From Bdellovibrio bacteriovorus HD100 (GTDB lineage: Bacteria > Bdellovibrionota > Bdellovibrionia > Bdellovibrionales > Bdellovibrionaceae): DNA of 64,000 nucleotides. The position numbers and the translations under genes are program-made. The stretch is from the NCBI RefSeq assembly GCF_000196175.1, contig NC_005363.1, positions 1,054,001 to 1,118,000 on the forward strand, written 5' to 3'. A model generated the notes under the pieces. That model was given only the letters and a program-made list of their open reading frames with translations, did no database searches and was not told the DNA's origin. Shown piece after piece: positions 13,944 to 26,547 of this stretch (position 1 is its first letter; each line of letters begins with the position of its first letter).

Positions 13944-16900
13944 TCATTTGCGGCAGACTTTGGCTTTCGGATTCACTTCGCAGATGGCGTCTTTCAAGGC
14001 CTGGTTCTGCTGTTCCAAAGACTGAACCTTGTGAACCAGAACGGCGTTGTTTTCTTTGAGCGAGGCAATCTCACGATCCTGCTTTTTGTTTTCAGAAATC
14101 ACGATCTGATAAAGTTCTTTGATGGAATTGATCAGTGGTGCCACCAGTTTTTGATAGGCCACGGATTTGGATCCGTCTTTGTCAGTACGAACCGCTTCAG
14201 GGAATACTTTTTCCACTTCCTGCGCGATCAAACCAATTTGTTTTTCTTTGTTTTCCGGATTTTTCCAGTAGTAGCTGTAACCGTTTAGACCGAGCACCTT
14301 ATTCAAACTGTCTGGCAGGATTTGGATGTCGGTTTTCAGACGGGCATCAGACGCTTCCGTCAAATTGCCGGCGATCCACATGTTCCCATTGGTATCAAGA
14401 TAGAATTTCTGGGAACACACTCCGCCTGGACAGTAATAGAACTGCGCGATGTTTGCGGCATTATTGGTCTGGTGAATCGTGAAGCCACGTTTTGTCGCGT
14501 GGTTATTATTTACATTCAGTGCTGAATCTGCGCGGGAAAGCAGCTCCAGATAAGAAGATCCGTCGTGGATATAGCCCGTACCACTGACATGCAATGGATA
14601 GCCTGGATTGTTGGTGCCGATTCCCACATTTCCGTTGTTCGCAATACGCATGCGTTCGGACACGGTGACGGCGCTTGCCGCAGTGACGGTTTGCACGTCG
14701 GAACTGTAGAAGCGAATACCGTCAGTACCACCGACATTGATCGCCGCGCGAGCCAAACCAGCTGAGCTCGACGAAGAGAGGAAGCTTCCGGGGGATCCAG
14801 CAGGATAAACACCATAACCAATTGATGGGGCGCCACTGGAGTATTCCGTACCGATGTTGGTTATGTTGCCATTAGAGTAGTTGTCTACGAGCAGTAAACT
14901 GCCGGAAACGGAGGAGGCCGTACCAGCACGAATGGCGCCGCCGGAAAGATCCAGTTTCTGCGCGGGATTGGTCACACCAATACCGATGTTACCAACGTTG
15001 TTGATGCGCATGCGTTCCGTGCGCGTGCTTCCTGTGGCAAAGATGATAGTGCTGTTTCCAACAGACATACCCATGCCGTTGGCAGGGATACCGTTGACAG
15101 TAGCTCCGGAGAAGTTCACACCGAGCCACAGACCACCGAAGCTTGAGTTCAAAAGATCCAGGGAAGTTACAGAAGAACCGCTGACGGCAATTCCGTTTGT
15201 GGCGTCAGAGTTGTTACCCACATGCAGCTTGTAGCTTGGGCTGGTCTGTCCAATGCCCACATTCCCATTGGAGTGAAGACGCATGCGTTCTGAACGGGAA
15301 GCTGCGCCGTTGATGGTGGTTTCAAAGATCATGTAAGAGCCACGAGTTGAGGTCGTGTGGTTTTGACCGGCACTGACTTCGATGGCCGAGTTCGTGGTGC
15401 CCGTGCTGGTGCCATCATGGGCGCGGAAATAGAAGCCACCCAATGTATCGCCGGAAGTCACTGCGCTGTTGGAAGCCAGGGTGCCACGCGTGCGGGTCAT
15501 CATCATCGCAGAGCCATCGTACTGACCATCGGAAGAATGCCACAGGCGAGCCTGGAAGGCGTCAGCGCTTTGAATGTCCAGATTGAAGCTTGGGGATGTT
15601 GTTCCAATCCCGACAGCACCACCATTGGAAATGGTCATGCGAGGGGTGCCGTTGGTTTCAAAGTTCAAGCCATAGTTGTCGTTGGTTCCCAAGGTCGCCG
15701 CGGCACCAAAGCTGTTTCCGCCGTTGGCGAACAGAGATGTCGCTGAATAGCTTGTACAACCCATCACCCCTGAAGCATTAAAGGTGATGGTCTGACCCAC
15801 GGCACAGGTGAAGGGGATCACAGCTGTGCCGGTGCCGTTAGAAACCAACAGTCGGTCGGCTGTGATGGAAGTGGCACCGGTACCACCTTTAGTGACAGGA
15901 ACCGCAGAAGGGAAGTTCGCCGGATCCGCACTGATTGTGCCTGAAGAAACCGCGATACCAGAACCCACTTGAACAACCCCACGAGCGCCGGTTGTTGCCG
16001 GATCCACAGAGATGACAGGTGTCGTTGTGCCCGTTGCAACTTGAACCGGAGCCGTGCCCGTGACACTGGTCACAGTACCCACAGTCGGAGTAGCCCATCT
16101 CAAACCCGAAGCTTGAGCCGAGTCCGCCGTCAGCACCTGACCGTTCGTACCTGCAGGCAGGCGAACGTCGTTGGTGCCGTCATTGGCAAGAACATCCCCT
16201 TTGGTTGTTAGCGGGGAAAGACCATTGAAGGCCGCAATCGCTGTTGTTGCTCCGGTACCACCATTTGCAATTGGCAAAGTTCCAGTCACATCAGAAGCCA
16301 GATTGATCGCCGCACCACTGGATGCCGCCGTCAGACGACCTTGAGCATCCACAGTGATGGAAGCGCGAGTGTAAGAACCCGCTGTTACAGCGGTATTAGC
16401 TAAAGCAATAGTGCCTGTCGAAGTTATCGGACCACCAGTCAAACCAGTGCCGGTTGCGATGTTCGTCACTGTACCGCCGGAAGACGTGTCGGTATCCGTA
16501 TCGTTCGCACATTCCCAACGACTGTTAGCAGCAACCCATTTCAACACCTGCCCGTCAGTACAAGCGGTGTTGTTCGGACGATAAGTCAGATATTTGCCAG
16601 CGCCGCTGGTGATGTCGGCGGCATCTAGTACCACAGCACCAGTTCTGCCAGCCACGGTCGTGACTGGGAAGGCAATCGCTGCATTTGAAGCCGCCGTCAG
16701 ACGGCCCTGAGCATCGACAGTGAAAGTGCCCACTGAAGTCGTGGAGCCATATCCGCCGGGCGTTACCGCCGTATTAGCCAAAGAAATCGTACCAGTTGCC
16801 GTGATCGGGCCTCCGGAAAGTCCCGTGCCTGTCGCGATGTTGGTGACGGTACCACCGGAGGAAGTGTCAGTATCAGTACCGCACTCCCAACGATTGTTTG

Positions 16901-18422
16901 CCGCAACCCATTTCAACACCTGCCCGTCAGTACAAGCGGTGTTGTTCGGACGATAAGTCAGATATTTGCCAGCGCCGCTGGTGATGTCGGCGGCATCTAG
17001 TACCACAGCACCAGTTCTGCCAGCCACGGTCGTGACTGGGAAGGCAATCGCCGCGTTCGAAGCCGCGGTCAGACGCCCTTGAGCATCCACAGTGAAGGTG
17101 CCCACGGAAGTAGTGGAGCCATAAGCTGCCGGAGTCACCGCTGTGTTTGCCAAAGAAATAGTTCCGGTGGAAGTGATCGGACCACCAGACAAACCGGTGC
17201 CCGTCGCAATATTCGTAACAGTCCCTCCAGAGTTGGCGTCATTGTCCGCTGCCGGAGCCCACTTGGTGCCGTCGTACTTCAAAATCTGACCAGCCACCAG
17301 ACCCGTTGTATCCACCGTCACACCTTTGATTTTATTGACAGAAGAGGCGCCGATCGTGCCACCAACGTCTCCGGCCAGGGACACATTGATCGCCTGGCAA
17401 GAAAAGCCGGCCACGGCATTCCAGTACATGGTTTCGTGAGCCGCACAGCCCGCGTTGACCACGGCGGCGCTGAACTCCGCATCCGTCATATAAGAATTTA
17501 AAGTGGCCGAAAGGCCGGTCACATCACTTTGTGCGATGGCCGATGGAGTCCACGCTGTCCCATTGTATTTCAGGAAGTTGCCATTGGCCGGAGCCGCATT
17601 GGAAACCGCTGTGCCCTGGATTTTTGCTACGGATGGATTCGGATAAGTGCCGTCCAGATCACCCGCCGCGGCTCCTGATGGAACACGCGCATCAGAGAAG
17701 CGGGCGTCGTTACCGGCAGCCACCGTGCCTGCGGTTGTGCCCACGTTCAGAGTCAGCGCCGGAGTCGAAGTGCCGTTGGCAATCGTAATATAAGCATTGG
17801 AAGAAGTGACATCAGTCACAGTGCCGCCGTTAGCGCCACTGATCCCTGCACACGTCAAAGCTGTTCCATTCCACGTCAGGAAGGTGCCGCCCGCGCACGT
17901 TGGCAGACCGGCTTTTAGCAGGAAGTCGTCGACGATTTTATCGCCCAGGGACTCTGCAGACAGAGCGTAGGCGGAAAAAGGAACCGAGCGAATTTCATTG
18001 GACGGGGAGATGACCTTCCAGCCATTGCCGTCGTGGAATTGCACTTTCAAAAGACGGGTGTCGCCGGATGCGGCTGTGTAGGTCGAACCTCCCGAACAGT
18101 TGTGTGCCAATGAGTTCTTAAATGCATCCAGCATTTTAAAAGTCGGGGAAGCTGGGAACAGTTTTGTGCCTGAACCGATCGGCACATCAAACACTCCCTT
18201 GGAGTTCAGCATGTTCACATCGTCTACTTGTTCGCGGTAGATGACACAAGTTCCGGTCGGGTTTGTGATTTCAAACAGGAAGCTGACATGAGCATATTCG
18301 AGAGCGGCCCCATCGGACTTGATAATCCGTCCCTGATAGGTCAAAGAATTGGGGGCGCCATGGCTGACAGCAGCCATAAAAAGGAGTGCTAAGAATGACA
18401 CAAGCGACGTTCCGTTTCTCAT
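13944..18422 (-). CDS. Mosaic adhesive trimer-type fibre with C-terminal peptidase S74 chaperone
   Basis: The 1492-residue exported fibre has a signal peptide (residues 1-22, cut after SHG), an N-terminal beta domain of about 150 residues shared by such proteins (SLTYQGRI onward), and then a long shaft of Gly/Thr/Ala repeats such as GGTVTNIATGTGLSGGPI and FTVDAQGRLTAASNAAI, typical of phage tail fibres. Several receptor-tip-like segments each end in RMRI.N.GNVGIG. The last 135 residues start with SDARLKTDI, the S74 intramolecular chaperone of endosialidase, including GLIAQEVEKVFPEAV and a terminal coiled coil. S74 domains trimerise the fibre and are cleaved off at the Ser of SD. B. bacteriovorus carries a set of mosaic adhesive trimer proteins on the vesicle-like surface used for prey contact; this gene fits that group. 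The start has only AAGAAAG upstream. Confidence 0.88.
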   Translation of the reverse strand: MRNGTSLVSFLALLFMAAVSHGAPNSLTYQGRIIKSDGAALEYAHVSFLFEITNPTGTCVIYREQVDDVNMLNSKGVFDVPIGSGTKLFPASPTFKMLDAFKNSLAHNCSGGSTYTAASGDTRLLKVQFHDGNGWKVISPSNEIRSVPFSAYALSAESLGDKIVDDFLLKAGLPTCAGGTFLTWNGTALTCAGISGANGGTVTDVTSSNAYITIANGTSTPALTLNVGTTAGTVAAGNDARFSDARVPSGAAAGDLDGTYPNPSVAKIQGTAVSNAAPANGNFLKYNGTAWTPSAIAQSDVTGLSATLNSYMTDAEFSAAVVNAGCAAHETMYWNAVAGFSCQAINVSLAGDVGGTIGASSVNKIKGVTVDTTGLVAGQILKYDGTKWAPAADNDANSGGTVTNIATGTGLSGGPITSTGTISLANTAVTPAAYGSTTSVGTFTVDAQGRLTAASNAAIAFPVTTVAGRTGAVVLDAADITSGAGKYLTYRPNNTACTDGQVLKWVAANNRWECGTDTDTSSGGTVTNIATGTGLSGGPITATGTISLANTAVTPGGYGSTTSVGTFTVDAQGRLTAASNAAIAFPVTTVAGRTGAVVLDAADITSGAGKYLTYRPNNTACTDGQVLKWVAANSRWECANDTDTDTSSGGTVTNIATGTGLTGGPITSTGTIALANTAVTAGSYTRASITVDAQGRLTAASSGAAINLASDVTGTLPIANGGTGATTAIAAFNGLSPLTTKGDVLANDGTNDVRLPAGTNGQVLTADSAQASGLRWATPTVGTVTSVTGTAPVQVATGTTTPVISVDPATTGARGVVQVGSGIAVSSGTISADPANFPSAVPVTKGGTGATSITADRLLVSNGTGTAVIPFTCAVGQTITFNASGVMGCTSYSATSLFANGGNSFGAAATLGTNDNYGLNFETNGTPRMTISNGGAVGIGTTSPSFNLDIQSADAFQARLWHSSDGQYDGSAMMMTRTRGTLASNSAVTSGDTLGGFYFRAHDGTSTGTTNSAIEVSAGQNHTTSTRGSYMIFETTINGAASRSERMRLHSNGNVGIGQTSPSYKLHVGNNSDATNGIAVSGSSVTSLDLLNSSFGGLWLGVNFSGATVNGIPANGMGMSVGNSTIIFATGSTRTERMRINNVGNIGIGVTNPAQKLDLSGGAIRAGTASSVSGSLLLVDNYSNGNITNIGTEYSSGAPSIGYGVYPAGSPGSFLSSSSSAGLARAAINVGGTDGIRFYSSDVQTVTAASAVTVSERMRIANNGNVGIGTNNPGYPLHVSGTGYIHDGSSYLELLSRADSALNVNNNHATKRGFTIHQTNNAANIAQFYYCPGGVCSQKFYLDTNGNMWIAGNLTEASDARLKTDIQILPDSLNKVLGLNGYSYYWKNPENKEKQIGLIAQEVEKVFPEAVRTDKDGSKSVAYQKLVAPLINSIKELYQIVISENKKQDREIASLKENNAVLVHKVQSLEQQNQALKDAICEVNPKAKVCRK
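16531..17052. repeat. 150-bp identical direct repeat inside the fibre gene
   Basis: Bases 16531-16680 and 16903-17052 are identical over 150 bp and offset by 372 bp (124 codons, in frame). They lie in a longer tandem repeat of the shaft; a third, more diverged copy of the flanking part lies at about 16280-16470. Exact identity over 150 bp suggests recent duplication or gene conversion, and allows length change by recombination. Confidence 0.9.
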
Positions 18423-18641: not shown

Positions 18642-19709
18642 ATGACCACAATTACGAAGAATCTAACCAACACTCCGAAAGCCCTTCCACCCTCTGATCA
18701 GCTTGGATTCGGGCAGCATTTTTCTGACCACATGTTTGTGGCTAAATACACTGAAGGCAAGGGCTGGTCTGAAGCCAGCGTCGTCCCTTATGGGCCGCTT
18801 TCTTTGGATCCCGGGGCTTCGGTGTTTCATTATGGTCAGGCTTTGTTTGAAGGCATGAAGGCCTTCCGCAAAGAAAGCGGCGAAGTGGTCTTCTTCCGTC
18901 CTGAGTTCAATTATCACCGTTTGGCTGAAGGCGCTGCTCGTTTGTGCCTGGAAGCTCCGCCAATGGACCTTTTCATGGAAGGTCTGCACCAGGTGGTGGC
19001 GGCTGATGAGCGCTGGATTCCAAAAGGGCCGAACACGTCTTTGTATATCCGTCCGACCTTGATTGGGTCTGAGCCGTTCCTGGGGGTTCGTCCTTCCCGT
19101 GAAACGTTGTTCTTTATTCTGTTGTCTCCGGTGGGTTCTTATTATTCTGAAGGCACAAAACCAATCAAGATTTGGACCGAGGAAAAGTACCTCCGTGCAG
19201 CTCCAGGGGGCCTGGGTGCGGTGAAGGCCGGGGCGAACTATGCCTCGAGTTTAAAGGCGGCCTTGGAAGCCAAGAAGAAGGGCTATGCCCAAGTTCTGTG
19301 GCTGGATGTCGAGCACCAGGGTATTGAGGAGGTCGGCACAATGAACGTGTTCTTCGTCTTCGATAATGAAATCGTCACGCCGGCATTGAATGGCAGCATT
19401 CTTTCTGGTGGCACCCGCGATGCGATTCTGCAGTTGTTGCGCTCTAAAAATCTGCCAGTGGTGGAAAGACGTATCACGATCACGGAAGTGGTGGATCGTC
19501 TGGCAAAAGGTGAATTGAAAGAAGCTTTCGGCACGGGTACGGCGGCGGTGATTTCCCCAGTGGGTGTTTTGCACTATCAGGGGAAAGACTGGACAATCAA
19601 CAACAACGAAAACGGACCTCTGAGCACACAGTTGTACAACGAGATAACGGCGATCCAGCGTGGCGCTCAAGCCGATACCTTGAACTGGCTTGTTCCTTTG
19701 AAGAAGTAA
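18642..19709 (+). CDS. ilvE: Branched-chain amino acid aminotransferase (fold-type IV PLP)
   Basis: The enzyme transfers amino groups between glutamate and the 2-oxo acids of leucine, isoleucine and valine. The 355-residue length and sequence match the long BCAT type (ilvE class II, like eukaryotic and actinobacterial enzymes): SLDPGASVFHYGQALFEGMKAF near residue 60, RPTLIGSEPFLGVRPS, GAVKAGANYASSL with the PLP lysine, IEEVGTMNVFFVF, and the SGGTRDAI phosphate-cup region. Residue GTGTAAVISPVG closes the active site. The ATG at 18642 follows GATAGGTCC, a moderate ribosome site. It is a lone gene divergent from the fibre gene. Since Bdellovibrio takes amino acids from prey, degradation or balancing is as likely as synthesis. 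Confidence 0.93.
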   Translation: MTTITKNLTNTPKALPPSDQLGFGQHFSDHMFVAKYTEGKGWSEASVVPYGPLSLDPGASVFHYGQALFEGMKAFRKESGEVVFFRPEFNYHRLAEGAARLCLEAPPMDLFMEGLHQVVAADERWIPKGPNTSLYIRPTLIGSEPFLGVRPSRETLFFILLSPVGSYYSEGTKPIKIWTEEKYLRAAPGGLGAVKAGANYASSLKAALEAKKKGYAQVLWLDVEHQGIEEVGTMNVFFVFDNEIVTPALNGSILSGGTRDAILQLLRSKNLPVVERRITITEVVDRLAKGELKEAFGTGTAAVISPVGVLHYQGKDWTINNNENGPLSTQLYNEITAIQRGAQADTLNWLVPLKK

Positions 19710-19743
19710 TTTTTCAGGGATTTTGTCTTAAGAAATTCGTTCG

Positions 19744-19788
19744 CCAAAAAAAGTGCTAGCGAGGAATCGTCAGTGATAACTCGCTAGC
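19744..19788 (-). terminator. Terminator of the riboswitch RNA
   Basis: Read on the minus strand, GCTAGCGAG (19788-19780) pairs with CTCGCTAGC (19763-19755) in a 9-bp stem, followed by a run of seven T. It lies about 80 nt downstream of the riboswitch and before any gene on that strand, so the RNA is stand-alone. On the plus strand no U-run follows. Confidence 0.8.
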
Positions 19789-19865
19789 TAAGGGGAATGA
19801 AACCAATCCTTGTATGTATTTGTTCCTTCCATATGCACACCTCTGATTCCTCAGGTGACTCATGA

Positions 19866-19953
19866 CCTTTGGCAGCTGGCTGGCGTGGCTTTGCACCGAC
19901 ACCCCTTTAGCTTTGCGTCCCGCCGTTTCCGACGGTTTGCCTTGAGGCAAAGG
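19866..19953 (-). ncRNA. c-di-GMP-I riboswitch aptamer (GEMM-I)
   Basis: On the minus strand the order is CCTTTG, AGGCAAACC, a hairpin GTCGGAAACGGC closed by a GAAA-type loop, GGGACGCAAAGC, then the second arm ending AGCCAGCTGCC, and CAAAGG. The segments GGCAAACC, GGAAAC and GGGACGCAAAGC are the diagnostic conserved bases of GEMM-I (as in the Vibrio Vc2 aptamer), the tetraloop faces the receptor in the second arm, and CCTTTG/CAAAGG closes P1 exactly. No coding gene lies in reach downstream; a terminator follows after about 80 nt. Confidence 0.9.
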
Positions 19954-20082
19954 AAGGATCTATATCCTAACGAGTATAACCCTAGGAACCTCCTTATGAG
20001 TTATTCATCAGATCCAACCAGTCCATTCTTCTTTAGAGAGGCATGAACCCAACCTCTTTGTAGTAATCCTGGTGACGCATCT

Positions 20083-20121
20083 TCACTTCAGTTCGTCATC
20101 GTGATGTTCATGTGTTCTCAT
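20083..20121 (-). CDS. Micro-ORF 1 of three upstream of the riboswitch
   Basis: ATG at 20121 follows AAGGAGG with a 6-nt spacer, the best ribosome site in this region. The frame encodes 12 residues, MRTHEHHDDELK, His and Asp rich, and ends TGA. Two further micro-ORFs follow: 20080-20033 (15 residues, 2 nt after this stop) and 20026-19994 (10 residues, 6 nt after the second stop). They may be a translated leader or small peptides; nothing is known of them. Confidence 0.35.
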   Translation of the reverse strand: MRTHEHHDDELK

Positions 20122-20201
20122 CCGTGTCCTCCTTCGCTTGGCCCTACTAGCGTTCACTTACCCGAGGTAAGTCTCCCGAGCCTTGTGGTTTCAACAAAAT
20201 C

Positions 20202-20231
20202 AGGATAGCTCGACCAAAGTTTTATTTTCAA
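20202..20231 (-). promoter_or_regulatory. Candidate sigma-70-type promoter for the riboswitch RNA
   Basis: On the minus strand TTGAAA (20231-20226) and TATCCT (20207-20202) are separated by 18 nt. It is the best vegetative-type match upstream of the aptamer; a start nearer the aptamer (TTATACT around 19981-19975) is an alternative. Confidence 0.35.
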
Positions 20232-20369: not shown

Positions 20370-20398
20370 AAAAAGAAACCTGTTACAGGTTTCTTTTT
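20370..20398 (-). terminator. First terminator, overlapping the mrp stop codon
   Basis: AAAAAGAAACCTG, loop TTA, CAGGTTTCTTTTT forms a perfect 13-bp stem. It begins in the stop codon of the Mrp-like gene, so termination is immediate; a second hairpin lies about 30 nt further on. Confidence 0.75.
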
Positions 20399-21197
20399 AA
20401 ACCGGCAGCAGTTCGCGGATTTCATCCGCAATTTTCATGAAGGCTTGCGCTTCGGCGCCGTTGCTGTTGGCTTCTACGATTGGAATGCCGGCTTCGCACG
20501 CCAGACCGACAGACGGGTTGAAGGGGATCTCACCCAGTTTGTTGATGCCTTTGGATTGGGCGTAGGAGTCGATTTCGCCCTTCGGGAACAACTGCATTTT
20601 TTCGCCGTTGGCCGGGTTGATCATGTAGGCCATGTTTTCAACCATGCCCAACAAAGGCACGTTCACACGGGCAAACATGTCGACGGCTTTTTTCACGTCC
20701 ACCAACGCCACGTTTTGCGGAGTGGAAACCATCACCGCACCAGACACTGGAACTTTCTGCGCCAGGGTCAGCTGGATGTCACCTGTGCCCGGAGGCAGGT
20801 CCACAACCAGATAATCCAACTCGCCCCAGTTTACGTCGCGCAGGAATTGATCCATCGCTTTGAACAGCATAGGTCCACGCCAAACCACGGCCGCACCTTC
20901 CTCGACCAGGAAGCCGATGCTCATCAGTTTGATGCCGTAACGGACCACCGGTTCCAGTTGGTTGGTGTCCGGGTTGATCTGAGGTTTTTGCGCCAGGGAA
21001 CCCAACATACGAGGAATGCTGGGACCATAGATATCCGCATCCAGAAGGCCGACTTTGCCGCCTTTTCTGCCCAAAGCCATGGCAAGATTCGTTGCCACAG
21101 TACTTTTACCCACGCCACCTTTGCCCGAACTGACGGCAATAATGTGTTTCACTCCGGGAATCGCGGTCTGCTTTTCAAAAGGATTTGGGGCTGCCAT
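20397..21197 (-). CDS. apbC: Mrp/ApbC-type P-loop ATPase lacking the CxxC motif
   Basis: Mrp/NBP35/ApbC ATPases carry and transfer iron-sulphur clusters in the cytoplasm. The 266-residue protein has the deviant Walker A motif SSGKGGVGKS (residues about 23-32), the Mrp signatures LLDADIYGPSIPRML, DYLVVDLPPGTGD and GAVMVSTPQNVALVDVKKAV. The N-terminal MIP18 domain of long Mrp proteins is absent. Unusually, the segment VENMAYMINPANGEKMQLF replaces the normal VENMSYFVCPHCG, so the two cluster-bridging cysteines are missing; one Cys remains, in LACEAG. Loss of cluster binding, or a new role, is inference. The ATG follows AAGGAGTCCC. Two terminators close the gene. Confidence 0.85.
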   Translation of the reverse strand: MAAPNPFEKQTAIPGVKHIIAVSSGKGGVGKSTVATNLAMALGRKGGKVGLLDADIYGPSIPRMLGSLAQKPQINPDTNQLEPVVRYGIKLMSIGFLVEEGAAVVWRGPMLFKAMDQFLRDVNWGELDYLVVDLPPGTGDIQLTLAQKVPVSGAVMVSTPQNVALVDVKKAVDMFARVNVPLLGMVENMAYMINPANGEKMQLFPKGEIDSYAQSKGINKLGEIPFNPSVGLACEAGIPIVEANSNGAEAQAFMKIADEIRELLPV

Positions 21198-21669: not shown

Positions 21670-24600
21670 TTACTGTCGTCGGTACGGCATATAGCGTGGA
21701 GTTGAGACAAAATTCCCATCCCATCTGTTTTTCGAGCACCACAGATGCCCCGACGCATTCATCGCGCAGTACGTATTGCCCTCGCCGTGACCTTTGATGC
21801 TGGTGAAGTTTTGGCTTGAAGCGATCGCCAGCGGCGCTTGGTCGAAGCGAGCCGAAGGCCAATAGTGCAATTTTCCGCCGGTGGTGAGTCCCAGAGCCGA
21901 GTTGCTGCCCACCTGAATATCCAGATAGGTTTCACTGCCATTGACCACTGTCGGGGAGGTGACCGTCATGTTACCGGTGTAATCACCCCAGTAGCCCCAG
22001 CACTTCAAAACCTGTCCGCTGGTGATGGCGCAAACTGCGTTAGTCCCCACACTCAGCTTCGTGAAGTTTTCTGTTGAGTCGACGGTGTAAGGGACGCTGG
22101 TATTGGTGGTCGTGCCATTTCCGACCTTACCCTGGTTGTTGGCTCCCCAGCATTTCAGCTTATCCGCAGAAGTCAGTCCGCAGATATGCGCATAAGAGAC
22201 AGCGATCGATTTATAAAGAGTCCCACCATCCAGAACAGTTGGCGTGGTGCGCGAGACCCCGCCCAGATGACCTTTGCCGTCGTCATAGCCGTAGCACTTG
22301 ATCTGATCACCTGTCGTGATGGCGCAGGCCAGACTGCTGGCAACAACCAAAGAGTCAGTTCTGTAGGAGGTGCCCGCATCCACCATTGTCGGAGTTCGAC
22401 TTGGGCAGTTTGACTCTGCACCCCAGGCATACAGCTTTCCGGCGGTGGAAAGACCGTAACCGCAATAGAAAGTTTCTCGGGCCGTCATGGCAAAGCTCAC
22501 AGAAGGAGCGACCATCGACATGTATTGAACGGAAGAGTCCATGGATTCGTTCCCCACCGCACCGAAGCCATTGGCACCAGCACACATCATGCGCCCGCTG
22601 CCATTGATGACACAGCTGCCGTTGTTGGAAGGGGAGGCCTTTCCGCCAGTAAAGTCGGAGCCATTATCCACAACGGCTGGTGTGGAAACTGTGTACCCGG
22701 AGCCCGCATAGCTTCCCACACACACGGCCTGGCCATTGCTTTTGATGGCACAGGCTCCGGCAGAGCCCACACCATAGTGGGCAATCGTGGTATTGGGATC
22801 CAGAGTTGCCATATCAAAGAGCGGCAGAGGCTCGAACCAGTTGTTGTAGTTGTCTCCCATGCAGACAATTTGTCCGTCAGTGGAAATTCCGCATGCGCCG
22901 TACGATGCGGCGGCTATTTGCGAGTACTTTATACCATCGTTGACGAGCGTCGGCGTGTTCAGAATGGTGGTTTGTTCCGAGCTGACGGTGCCACGCACTT
23001 CCCCCCAGCATTTCAAATCATTGGCGGCAGTGATCGCACAGCGATAGCCGCTTTCATCCGAGACAGAAAGATAGTCCGTGGCGGCATCGATGGTGGTGCG
23101 TGTGACGACGGGATTGGTACCCGTCATGGCGCCGACGACTGAGTTGCCATTCCAGCCCCAGCACTTCAGCTTCTGGCCAGTCGTCACACCGCAAAGGGTA
23201 GCGCCGCCGGCAACTGAAAGATAGCTTGTGCCGGCGTCCACAACTGTCGGTGAGAGCACGTTGGTTGTGCTGCCGGGAATGATTTGCTGTTGATTGTTTC
23301 CGCCCCAGCATTTCAGCTCCTGGGTGTCCGTGATACCACAGGTGGTGGAGGATTTTCTGTGAATGCTTGTATAGTTGACGGTCCCATCGATCAGGACCGG
23401 GGAATACCGGTCTGTGGTTGTGCCATCTCCGACATTGCCGGAGTTGTTGCGGCCCCAGCATTTCACTTTACCCAGCTCGGTCAATGCACAGGCTCCCTGG
23501 GCGCCTGTGGAAATTTTGACATAATTTTCACCACTGTCGACGTCCACCGGGCTGGTCTGTTCGGTGGTGTTGCCATTACCAAGCTGGCCATAATAGTTGT
23601 AGCCCCAGCATTTGATTTTTTTTGCCGTGGTGACAGCGCAGGCATATTGGTCTGTGATTGAAACATCCAGGACGGTGAAGCCAGCAAGAGGTTCGACTTT
23701 GGTGCCGACGCGGTTTTTGTGGCCGACGCCCAGCTGACCGTTGTAGTTGTCGCCCCAGCAGAACATGCGGCCGTCAGAATAAATGGCGCATTGGTTGTAG
23801 CGTGCAGAGACAATCTTTGTGGCCGTCGTAAAGACAGCATCGTCGTCCTTGATTAGATGATAGACCAGGCTGGAGGTTCCGATGCGGACCGCCGCTTGGT
23901 CGGTGTGACTGATAAAGACTCTGAGATTGCGATCATTTTCGGTCAGACCATTGTCGAAAGTGTCATAAGAAATGGATGCTGACAGCGAGCCTGCCGGGAT
24001 GGTGACAAAGCCGGGGGCAAGGTTGTGGTCGACCATATAGATCTGATCACCGAAATAGTTATAGTAAACTTTCACGTCATAAGTTTTGGTTCCGGATAGT
24101 GTGAAGGTCACGGCGTTGTTGGTGGTTCCTTCGTTGATGGAAATATTTTTGGAAGTGATCGAAGCCACAACCTCGGAATCCTTCGTCCAGCTGACACTGG
24201 TGGCAGCGGCAAAATCCTGCCACAGTCCGTTGACACTGCTTTTACCGATAGCGCAGACGGTGATGTCGCCATTGCTAGCTCCGGAAAGATCCAGGGTTCG
24301 GCTGGCGGGCGCAGCCGCTTCCGCAGTGTAGCCGCTCAAGGACGAGCAATCGACAGAGTTTCCGACTTTGTAGCGGAAGGCACTGACTGTGGCGCCGCCG
24401 AAATTCACACTGACCGAGTTCAGGACACTGACGCCCGACGGGGCTCCGGTGATCTGAATCGTGGGTGGTGTCGTGGACAGCGTGTAGCTGGCGGTTTTGG
24501 TTTCTTGAACGATCGCATTTTGCATCAACTGGGCGGTGAAGGTGATGGCAGCTCCGTCGGCGCCAGGCACGCTGATGGCTGAAGACCATGTTCCACCGCT

Positions 24601-26547
24601 GCACGTGGTTGAGGTTGTCACCGGGCTGGTGATGTTGATGGTGGCTCCGTTCACGTTGCAAGAACCGCTGAATTGTGTGCTGGGCCCGATGATGGCACCG
24701 TTGGCCGGAGATTGAATCGACAGGGTGCGGGTGATTGTGAAGGTCTTGCTGTCGCTGGCCAGAGTGATGTCATTGTCTTTCAGTGTGGCAGTGACATTCA
24801 CTGTAGAGCTGTTGGCAAGATTGGAAGTGTCTAGAGTGTAGTACCACTCCTGATCCACGGTGCAGGTGGTTGTCGCACTCAGCGTTCCGCTGAGTTGAAC
24901 CTGCTTGTTCGGGACAGAACAATAGCCCCCCAGCTCCAGCGAGTTGCCAATCTGGTCAGAGGTGGCAGGATAGTCGATGAAGATTTCAGGAACTTCCAGC
25001 GTGACTGTCGCAACAGAGCAGAAAGTTTCGCTGTTAAAGGCATCGCGGAATTTCACATAAAGTTCTTTGGGCCCAGAGGTGGCGTCAGAGAATGTCCAGT
25101 TTGTCGTGGCGGAAAAGGACGCCCACGCTCCCCCGGCAGAACAGCTGGGGTCTTCGGTCAGATATGTCTGACTCATAGGTGATGGGGCACTGAGTGCTAC
25201 ACTGACGGTGGCACTGACTGCGATGGGATCGCCGCCATTCAGGGTCATTATGGGGGCTGGGGCCGGGTCTGCCCCGGTGGCTTCCCAGCGAATATCAAAG
25301 CCATTGTCCGTCACGCTGCCATCGGATTCAAACTCAACACGAACTGTGCTGGAGGTCGTGTTCACTAGCATAGGTGTAACCACGCCGGATTCGCTGAAGA
25401 CCTCGGTGCCGTTGTCATAGATTCTTACAAAGTCATAGCCGTTTTCTGTATCAAGCAGATCGATGTAAAACTTGGCGGGACCGGTCAGTGTCAGATCCAG
25501 GGTGCAGAGTTCGTCATTCTGGTATACTCCTGCCAAGCCGCCGGAGTCGACAATACGGCCGCGGGAAAGACTGGAAGTGGTGTTGGTGCACATGGTGTGG
25601 GTGGTGTATGTCGGCCATTGAATAGAGTCGTGGTAACACGGGGATTCATCCAGTGTGGCCGTTCGGAATTTGACGCTGACGTAGGCTGTGCCACCTTGGG
25701 CGCCCGCATCCAGATTCCAGTTGTCAATAAAGGTCGCTGTACTGACCCATGAAGGGGTACCAGTGCAAGTTTGATTGTTGAACAGGGCCATCTCTGGTAA
25801 TGAGGCCGGTGCCAGGATGTTCAGATCCTCCACGCCATTTAAAGTTGTGGATTTGATCAGTGTGCCAATGAAAATCTGGGGAGTGCCGACATAAATCTGA
25901 ACTTGCTGGGGAGCAGATAGGTTTTGGGCCTTGTCAGCGGCTTGAACGTAAAGATAGCGAATGCCCGGGGTGGCTAGTGTTGTATTGTTTGTTGCTGTAA
26001 AATTCTCTGTGATAAAAACGAATGCCGGGGACGTACTGTCCAGATAGCGGAACTGACACAGATCTGCAGGATCCAGACAGCTCCACGCCGCCGACTGGGG
26101 TTCAGCCGGAATGATGATATTGTTGAGATTGCTCAATTGGGGCAAAACCGTGTCCTTTAGAATCGTGGCTGATTCGGTGCGGGTTTCGCCGGTGGTCAAG
26201 GTTTCTTGAACTTCTAAAATCAGGGCGCTAGAGTCCGGCACCGCGGAGAAATCGTAGGTCACTGACCACTGGTTGTTGTCGCAGGTTGTGGATGCCACAA
26301 CTGTGGAATCAAGTTTGATTTGAAGCGAGGTTTCGTTATTGCCGCAGGTCCCGGAAATGAGTTTGGCCGAGACATTGCCGGCGTTGACGATGATATAGGG
26401 ATCTATATCAGAAATCTTGAGTTCAGCTTGCACTGGCTCTGATGACAATAGATCCTGAAGTTTTGCCGAGATGTTACAGCCCGTCAAAATAAGAGACAGC
26501 AATAGCAATAAGGTGCCAGTTGATCCGAGACGTCCCGAGTAGTTCAT
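21670..26547 (-). CDS. Giant lipoprotein with CUB, Calx-beta-like and RCC1 repeat domains
   Basis: The 1625-residue protein starts with a lipoprotein signal (LSLILTGC, Cys about 24). Ig-like domains occupy residues 40-310. A CUB-like domain lies at about 318-420, with GGLAGVYQNDELCTLDLTL, DFVRIYDNGTEVF and the end strand FDIRW. More Ig-like beta domains follow, then a Calx-beta-like unit (about 795-905, SINEGTTNNAVTFTLSG and a closing DDD). From about 905 to the end are some thirteen RCC1 repeats, each with a core such as CAITSGQVLKCWGYN and GQLGNGTT, giving one or two seven-bladed propellers. Such surface lipoproteins probably bind proteins or glycans; the role in prey interaction is inference. 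It has no ribosome site of note and no partner gene. Confidence 0.82.
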   Translation of the reverse strand: MNYSGRLGSTGTLLLLLSLILTGCNISAKLQDLLSSEPVQAELKISDIDPYIIVNAGNVSAKLISGTCGNNETSLQIKLDSTVVASTTCDNNQWSVTYDFSAVPDSSALILEVQETLTTGETRTESATILKDTVLPQLSNLNNIIIPAEPQSAAWSCLDPADLCQFRYLDSTSPAFVFITENFTATNNTTLATPGIRYLYVQAADKAQNLSAPQQVQIYVGTPQIFIGTLIKSTTLNGVEDLNILAPASLPEMALFNNQTCTGTPSWVSTATFIDNWNLDAGAQGGTAYVSVKFRTATLDESPCYHDSIQWPTYTTHTMCTNTTSSLSRGRIVDSGGLAGVYQNDELCTLDLTLTGPAKFYIDLLDTENGYDFVRIYDNGTEVFSESGVVTPMLVNTTSSTVRVEFESDGSVTDNGFDIRWEATGADPAPAPIMTLNGGDPIAVSATVSVALSAPSPMSQTYLTEDPSCSAGGAWASFSATTNWTFSDATSGPKELYVKFRDAFNSETFCSVATVTLEVPEIFIDYPATSDQIGNSLELGGYCSVPNKQVQLSGTLSATTTCTVDQEWYYTLDTSNLANSSTVNVTATLKDNDITLASDSKTFTITRTLSIQSPANGAIIGPSTQFSGSCNVNGATINITSPVTTSTTCSGGTWSSAISVPGADGAAITFTAQLMQNAIVQETKTASYTLSTTPPTIQITGAPSGVSVLNSVSVNFGGATVSAFRYKVGNSVDCSSLSGYTAEAAAPASRTLDLSGASNGDITVCAIGKSSVNGLWQDFAAATSVSWTKDSEVVASITSKNISINEGTTNNAVTFTLSGTKTYDVKVYYNYFGDQIYMVDHNLAPGFVTIPAGSLSASISYDTFDNGLTENDRNLRVFISHTDQAAVRIGTSSLVYHLIKDDDAVFTTATKIVSARYNQCAIYSDGRMFCWGDNYNGQLGVGHKNRVGTKVEPLAGFTVLDVSITDQYACAVTTAKKIKCWGYNYYGQLGNGNTTEQTSPVDVDSGENYVKISTGAQGACALTELGKVKCWGRNNSGNVGDGTTTDRYSPVLIDGTVNYTSIHRKSSTTCGITDTQELKCWGGNNQQQIIPGSTTNVLSPTVVDAGTSYLSVAGGATLCGVTTGQKLKCWGWNGNSVVGAMTGTNPVVTRTTIDAATDYLSVSDESGYRCAITAANDLKCWGEVRGTVSSEQTTILNTPTLVNDGIKYSQIAAASYGACGISTDGQIVCMGDNYNNWFEPLPLFDMATLDPNTTIAHYGVGSAGACAIKSNGQAVCVGSYAGSGYTVSTPAVVDNGSDFTGGKASPSNNGSCVINGSGRMMCAGANGFGAVGNESMDSSVQYMSMVAPSVSFAMTARETFYCGYGLSTAGKLYAWGAESNCPSRTPTMVDAGTSYRTDSLVVASSLACAITTGDQIKCYGYDDGKGHLGGVSRTTPTVLDGGTLYKSIAVSYAHICGLTSADKLKCWGANNQGKVGNGTTTNTSVPYTVDSTENFTKLSVGTNAVCAITSGQVLKCWGYWGDYTGNMTVTSPTVVNGSETYLDIQVGSNSALGLTTGGKLHYWPSARFDQAPLAIASSQNFTSIKGHGEGNTYCAMNASGHLWCSKNRWDGNFVSTPRYMPYRRQ

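Follow-up and report, generated by a model that had tools for sequence, protein, structure and literature searches.

The merRNA locus

The window analysed comprises 64,000 nucleotides (1,054,001-1,118,000) of the Bdellovibrio bacteriovorus HD100 genome, a single contig of 3,782,950 bp. A minus-strand transcript of 445 nt occupies positions 19741..20185, with mrp, encoding a ParA/Mrp ATPase, as the upstream same-strand neighbour (20397..21197, minus strand) and ilvE as the convergent neighbour (18642..19709, plus strand), both lying outside the transcript. Window positions 20185-19741 match exactly the merRNA in Table 2 of Karunker et al. 2013 (PMC3627812), which was placed by RNA-seq and 5'-end coordinates at 1,073,741-1,074,185 on the minus strand, with a length of 445 nt, an orphan c-di-GMP-I aptamer and massive attack-phase expression. 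The feature is merRNA, as an earlier note on this DNA had proposed, with coordinates, strand and genome all in exact agreement. The interval given in that note, 19744-19953, correctly holds the aptamer through the terminator; since the published start at 20185 lies 234 nt 5' of the aptamer, it leaves out the 5' 234 nt of the RNA. Elsewhere on the minus strand, the window encodes a 1492-aa repetitive secreted protein at 13944-18422, whose N-terminal part is similar to a fibre/anchor-like gene (L187), and a 1625-aa ORF at 21670-26547, predicted to be lipoprotein-like, with RCC1-like repeats of the CWGxNxxGQLG type in its C-terminal half. No tRNA or tmRNA was found within the window.

In the published RNA-seq data, merRNA reached an RPKM of 2,038,479 in attack phase versus 407 in growth phase, about twice the abundance of tmRNA and also above that of SRP RNA (PMC3627812). 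The same study found no conserved ORF 3' of the riboswitch and no conservation beyond the Bdellovibrio lineage, treated merRNA as non-coding, and proposed a role as a c-di-GMP reservoir or sink that was marked as speculation. Host-independent stator mutants with altered c-di-GMP flux were later reported to down-regulate merRNA (2024, PMC11323537), and our literature search on merRNA returned nothing further beyond these two papers. The object and the sink idea for HD100 are already known; new here are the class-wide conservation, a micro-ORF, an outer helix termed P0 and a start-less AGGAGG.

A sigma70-like promoter, TTGAAA-18-TATCCT, is located at 20202..20231 on the minus strand and is conserved across most of the genus. 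The -10-like TATCCT stands 17 nt before the published 5' end, a spacing longer than usual; transcription may begin near 20195, or processing may have produced the end at 20185. The stretch GUUGAAACC, conserved between TATCCT and the published 5' end (window 20202-20185), suggests an earlier true start. Reading of the minus strand in the gap between mrp and merRNA revealed two hairpin-plus-U stretches, at about 20400-20373 and 20347-20318. Based on these stretches and the promoter-like site at 20231-20202, merRNA is taken to be independent of mrp. RNAalifold on 20 genus members predicted a 5' stem GGCUC/GGGCC around a hairpin (20140..20182, minus strand), the hairpin being marked by several compensatory pairs. 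Folded by itself, the 5' half is thermodynamically no better than shuffles (z 0.64), and its matches to other Rfam families are at chance level only. A helix closing the 5' and 3' ends, GUUGAAACC/GGUUUC, was rejected, as it fits most of genus g1 and elsewhere the 3' element is retained without the 5' partner.

The aptamer and the outer helix P0

The covariance search against RF01051 identified a full-length c-di-GMP-I (GEMM-I) aptamer at 19868..19951 on the minus strand (model 1-87), with 60.8 bits (gathering score 35) and an E value of 2e-9. The minus-strand aptamer recognized in the earlier note is thereby borne out, as is its closed P1, in which CCUUUG at 19953-19948 pairs with CAAAGG at 19871-19866 in 6 of 6 positions. 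No other Rfam match was found in the 64-kb window, nor a further c-di-GMP-I copy in the HD100 genome. A G directly precedes GCAAA in HD100, as in c-di-GMP-type aptamers. The position that discriminates c-di-GMP from cGAMP carries a G in 87 of 91 loci by an automatic rule, and the remaining four read GG there too. From the fold match together with the G at the recognition position, the aptamer is predicted to be of the c-di-GMP type.

Folding of a 226-nt segment gave a structure more stable than shuffles (z -2.5). The strand immediately 5' of the aptamer, UCCUUCC (19952..19958, minus strand), pairs with GGAAGGA (19824..19830, minus strand), an element located about 20-70 nt 3' of the aptamer across the loci, to form P0. 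At least 6 contiguous pairs of P0 can be formed in 82 of 88 loci versus 31.8 in shuffles. The helix shows compensatory changes, its pair types including UCCUUCC/GGAAGGA, UACUUCC/GGAAGUA, UUCUUCC/GGAAGAA, AACCUUCC/GGAAGGUU and CCUCUC/GAGAGG. A UUUGCC/GGCAAA hairpin was considered as an alternative to P1 and discarded; it is kept in family f1, but is largely a consequence of the aptamer's own sequence. Compared with the Vc2-type c-di-GMP-I riboswitches of RF01051, merRNA has the aptamer sequence, the fold and the recognition G in common, whereas it differs in having no downstream gene or expression platform, an extra outer helix and an unconditional terminator.

The terminator and the lack of a downstream gene

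An intrinsic terminator lies at 19746..19788 on the minus strand, about 80 nt past the aptamer. Folding revealed a stem of 9 bp (19788-19780 with 19763-19755) and seven U behind it; the long loop of this hairpin kept it from being seen in a simple scan. Beyond it the minus strand is antisense to ilvE, so that the short run from aptamer to strong terminator to ilvE antisense described earlier is confirmed throughout. The published RNA ends at the terminator (19741) with no run-on into a gene.

The same pattern was found across the class. Of 88 loci, 86 have a terminator no more than 230 nt away, versus 11.4 in shuffles. The next ORF of at least 120 aa is convergent in 64 of 85 class loci, and where the next gene is on the same strand, a terminator precedes it in 20 of 21 cases. 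The gene ilvE itself adjoins the RNA in only 4 loci. Control of a downstream same-strand gene, which would define a cis-riboswitch, was found neither in HD100 nor in the class, in line with the earlier proposal that the aptamer controls no gene. Because convergent neighbours and terminators recur in this way, the missing downstream target is a conserved property.

Distribution across the class

A DNA search detected homologues in 40 of 60 relatives. With the Rfam model, 91 of 144 class genomes proved to contain a GEMM-I, always as a single copy. Three genomes of the same genus as HD100 (G003, G007 and G009) gave no GEMM-I; their assemblies are fragmented (230-550 contigs), and either loss or an assembly gap may be the reason. 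A link to the presence of c-di-GMP enzymes was dropped as uninformative, GGDEF genes being present in 141 of 143 genomes. The gene mrp is found on the same strand no more than 3.5 kb upstream of the RNA in 59 of 91 loci. This neighbourhood occurs in six families (f1, f3, f4, f6, f10 and f11), which points to a single ancestral locus, and by this comparison merRNA is an ancient single-locus RNA of the class.

A selected micro-ORF in the 5' half

The 5' half of merRNA contains a micro-ORF of 12 codons, MRTHEHHDDELK-stop (20083..20121, minus strand), supported by homologous ORFs and codon-level selection and preceded by a Shine-Dalgarno (SD) sequence AAGGAGG (20128..20134, minus strand) that is kept in the genus. 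The genus alignment revealed a strong SD, an ATG at constant spacing and an in-frame stop. Most species of the genus encode MKxRIHDHHDEPPK-stop; the HD100 ORF is exactly two codons shorter, and the peptide of the HD100 clade is without the proline end (DDELK-stop). Peptides of further lineages read MRRRxFDHRDKSPK-stop and VKRRIFxHNDKSPK-stop, and those of families f2, f3, f4 and f10 end with LDPPP, then K or E, then the stop. Counted by eye with variants included, a homologous ORF of about 13-19 residues is present in about 64 of 91 loci. The strict rule, requiring a start, an SD and the end P-x-K/E, retrieved 41 of 90 loci; dinucleotide shuffles gave 0.36 on average and at most 3, and the opposite strand gave 1. 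A recognisable ORF is missing from some lineages (g5, g6 and f6). One locus (L077, genome G045) carries two tandem micro-ORFs with the end LDPPPE-stop before one orphan aptamer, ending 277 and 188 nt upstream of it, and a third tiny ORF ending in PPPI-stop.

Within the genus, 319 synonymous versus 125 non-synonymous differences were counted in frame, compared with 35/446 and 40/442 in the other frames. Adding the HD100 clade and leaving out the PPK end lowered the ratio to 358/199, a value still reached by only 1 of 1000 permutations. The LDPPP group has unconstrained third codon positions. In codons -6 to -3, which were not fixed outright by the rule used for searching, there are 404 synonymous versus 12 non-synonymous single-base differences (up to 97%), matched by 0 of 3000 column permutations. 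The whole end gives 474/11, though the LDPPP rows were gathered by their last residues, which biases the last two codons and makes the genus test the cleaner one. The codon-level pattern shows that the micro-ORF is under purifying selection. A micro-ORF under such selection is most likely translated, and merRNA is probably not purely non-coding. Given this selection, the lack of a conserved ORF that a non-coding RNA would display does not hold here. The earlier view of the RNA as aptamer plus terminator overlooked this 5' half, and unlike the non-coding, Bdellovibrio-only RNA of the published account (PMC3627812), the RNA described here is class-wide and carries a selected 5' micro-ORF.

The end of the peptide varies, with a PPP or PP end of the arrest type in many lineages and ELK-stop in the HD100 clade. 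Leader peptides of the TnaC and SpeFL type are encoded by tiny ORFs with a strong SD and C-terminal proline(s) by the stop, located 5' of a regulatory RNA structure, and arrest the ribosome near the stop codon. The merRNA loci resemble them in the tiny ORF, the strong SD, the proline(s) before the stop and the regulatory RNA structure downstream, with arrest being putative here; they differ in that the proline end is gone in the HD100 clade and no structural gene lies behind merRNA. The proline end suggests ribosome arrest in many relatives. As HD100 is without it, arrest cannot account for the abundance of merRNA in HD100.

The start-less AGGAGG and the 3' element

A second AAGGAGG with no start codon behind it, conserved across loci, is located at 19989..19995 on the minus strand. 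Of 90 loci, 73 have AGGAGG (5.3 expected), for the most part 30-55 nt ahead of the aptamer. This motif was rejected as the ribosome-binding site (RBS) of another ORF, since start codons behind it are rarer than chance (13 versus 32.8). In 72 of 88 loci, versus 23 in shuffles, AGGAGG can instead pair with the P0/P1 5' strand; this alternative pairing has no covariation support because AGGAGG is invariant. Before the terminator lies a conserved 3' element, GGAUUGGUUUCAUUCCCCUUAG (19788..19809, minus strand), whose core GGUUUCAUUCCCC is near-invariant in most f1 loci. In part of the loci this element can cover the SD and start codon of the micro-ORF. Six loci of genus g6 (L071, L079, L083, L088, L090 and L116) retain both AGGAGG and the 3' element, the micro-ORF being unrecognisable there.

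Proposed function and alternatives

We propose, with an even balance of confidence, that merRNA acts as a stand-alone c-di-GMP receptor or buffer RNA that also serves as the mRNA of a micropeptide. P0 and P1 would lock the aptamer in a stable domain, and the terminator would be unconditional; with such a terminator and nothing behind it, ligand binding could have no effect on a gene further downstream. With a level about twice that of tmRNA, merRNA would bind a meaningful share of the cellular c-di-GMP in attack phase as a buffer or sink, and the bound c-di-GMP would be released as merRNA drops about 5000-fold at growth-phase entry. Translation of the micro-ORF would probably either tune merRNA stability or be the regulated output itself. 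Among the readings that make use of the published abundance, a stand-alone buffer is the simplest, and the decrease of merRNA in stator mutants with altered c-di-GMP flux is counted in its favour (PMC11323537). A pure sink would need neither the conserved micro-ORF, nor the start-less AGGAGG, nor the near-invariant 3' element, which points to more than storage. The class-wide range, the fixed single copy and the selected micro-ORF suggest that merRNA, until now an unexplained non-coding RNA of one lineage (PMC3627812), may be a general part of the c-di-GMP physiology of these bacteria.

More tentatively, and with confidence well below even, merRNA could stand as type member for a dual-function RNA found throughout the class, combining an abundant c-di-GMP receptor with a translated 5' message of 12-19 codons. 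Binding of c-di-GMP would here be coupled to translation, or to arrest at the PPP-K/E-stop, via a switch made up of P0, AGGAGG and the 3' element. Should this coupling hold, the riboswitch would lie downstream of the ORF under its control, a new riboswitch layout and a rare case of one RNA as receptor, buffer and messenger.

A rather unlikely alternative is an inverted riboswitch, in which the upstream micro-ORF is under the aptamer's control. Binding of c-di-GMP, with P0/P1 formed, would determine which strand, the 3' element GGUUUCAUUCCCCUUAG or CCUUCC, masks the SD and start of the micro-ORF, the output being the peptide or the passage of the ribosome. Pairing of the 3' element with both the SD and AUG-AAR is possible in several loci, for example in G006, G018-G020, G024, G067, G076, G078 and G079, and for 10 of 35 leader RBSs it is better than for 95% of control RBSs. 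The possible pairing of AGGAGG with the P0/P1 5' strand fits as well. The signal against control RBSs is moderate, however, with a median rank of only 0.21; AGGAGG and the 3' element hardly vary and so offer no covariation, and g6 retains the 3' element with no recognisable ORF.

It is unlikely that merRNA serves to park ribosomes, with Pro-Pro-Pro-Lys/Glu-stop stalling them and the start-less AGGAGG helping to retain ribosomes or 30S subunits while attack-phase cells do not grow, under the control of c-di-GMP. The DPPP[K/E]-stop end with free third positions in f2, f3, f4 and f10, the second AGGAGG with its scarcity of start codons, and a published abundance above SRP RNA and tmRNA would agree with such a role, but HD100 and its nearest relatives end in ELK-stop, with no proline, despite the massive RNA there.

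Very improbable is a trans-acting antisense sRNA whose 3' element pairs with the RBSs of target mRNAs, the aptamer gating its exposure. The element is anti-RBS-like and near-invariant in f1, and HD100 contains a 13-nt perfect complement placed precisely at the start codon of a gene for a tail-fibre-like surface protein (L187, genome 2,661,725-2,661,737). This single match is absent from the close relative G023, although its merRNA region is 98% identical, and most genus genomes are without any site except merRNA itself; a conserved trans target via the 3' element was rejected on this ground. A role as a CsrA sponge was also rejected. Similar to CsrB/RsmZ, merRNA is abundant and has several GGA motifs, with csrA in the genome, whereas its motif excess is weak: the mean z is 0.5 for GGA and 1.2 for ANGGA (4.7 versus 2.9), strong only in g6. 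The six g6 loci have 7-10 ANGGA versus about 3.

An ordinary cis-riboswitch acting on a downstream gene by terminator read-through is largely refuted, since the next gene in the class is mostly convergent and differs among genera, the terminator does not overlap the aptamer and the published RNA stops at it, the point in its favour being GEMM-I loci of families f22 and f26 in other classes. These loci (L165-L181) have one GEMM-I per genome, with a terminator behind it and then a gene of about 225 aa on the same strand, and GEMM-I may have a cis role there. No DPPPK ORF was seen in them. They show a conserved GAAGAGG 5' of the aptamer and CCUCUUC 3' of it, together with a hairpin GGGGGGUCCC...GGACCCCC.
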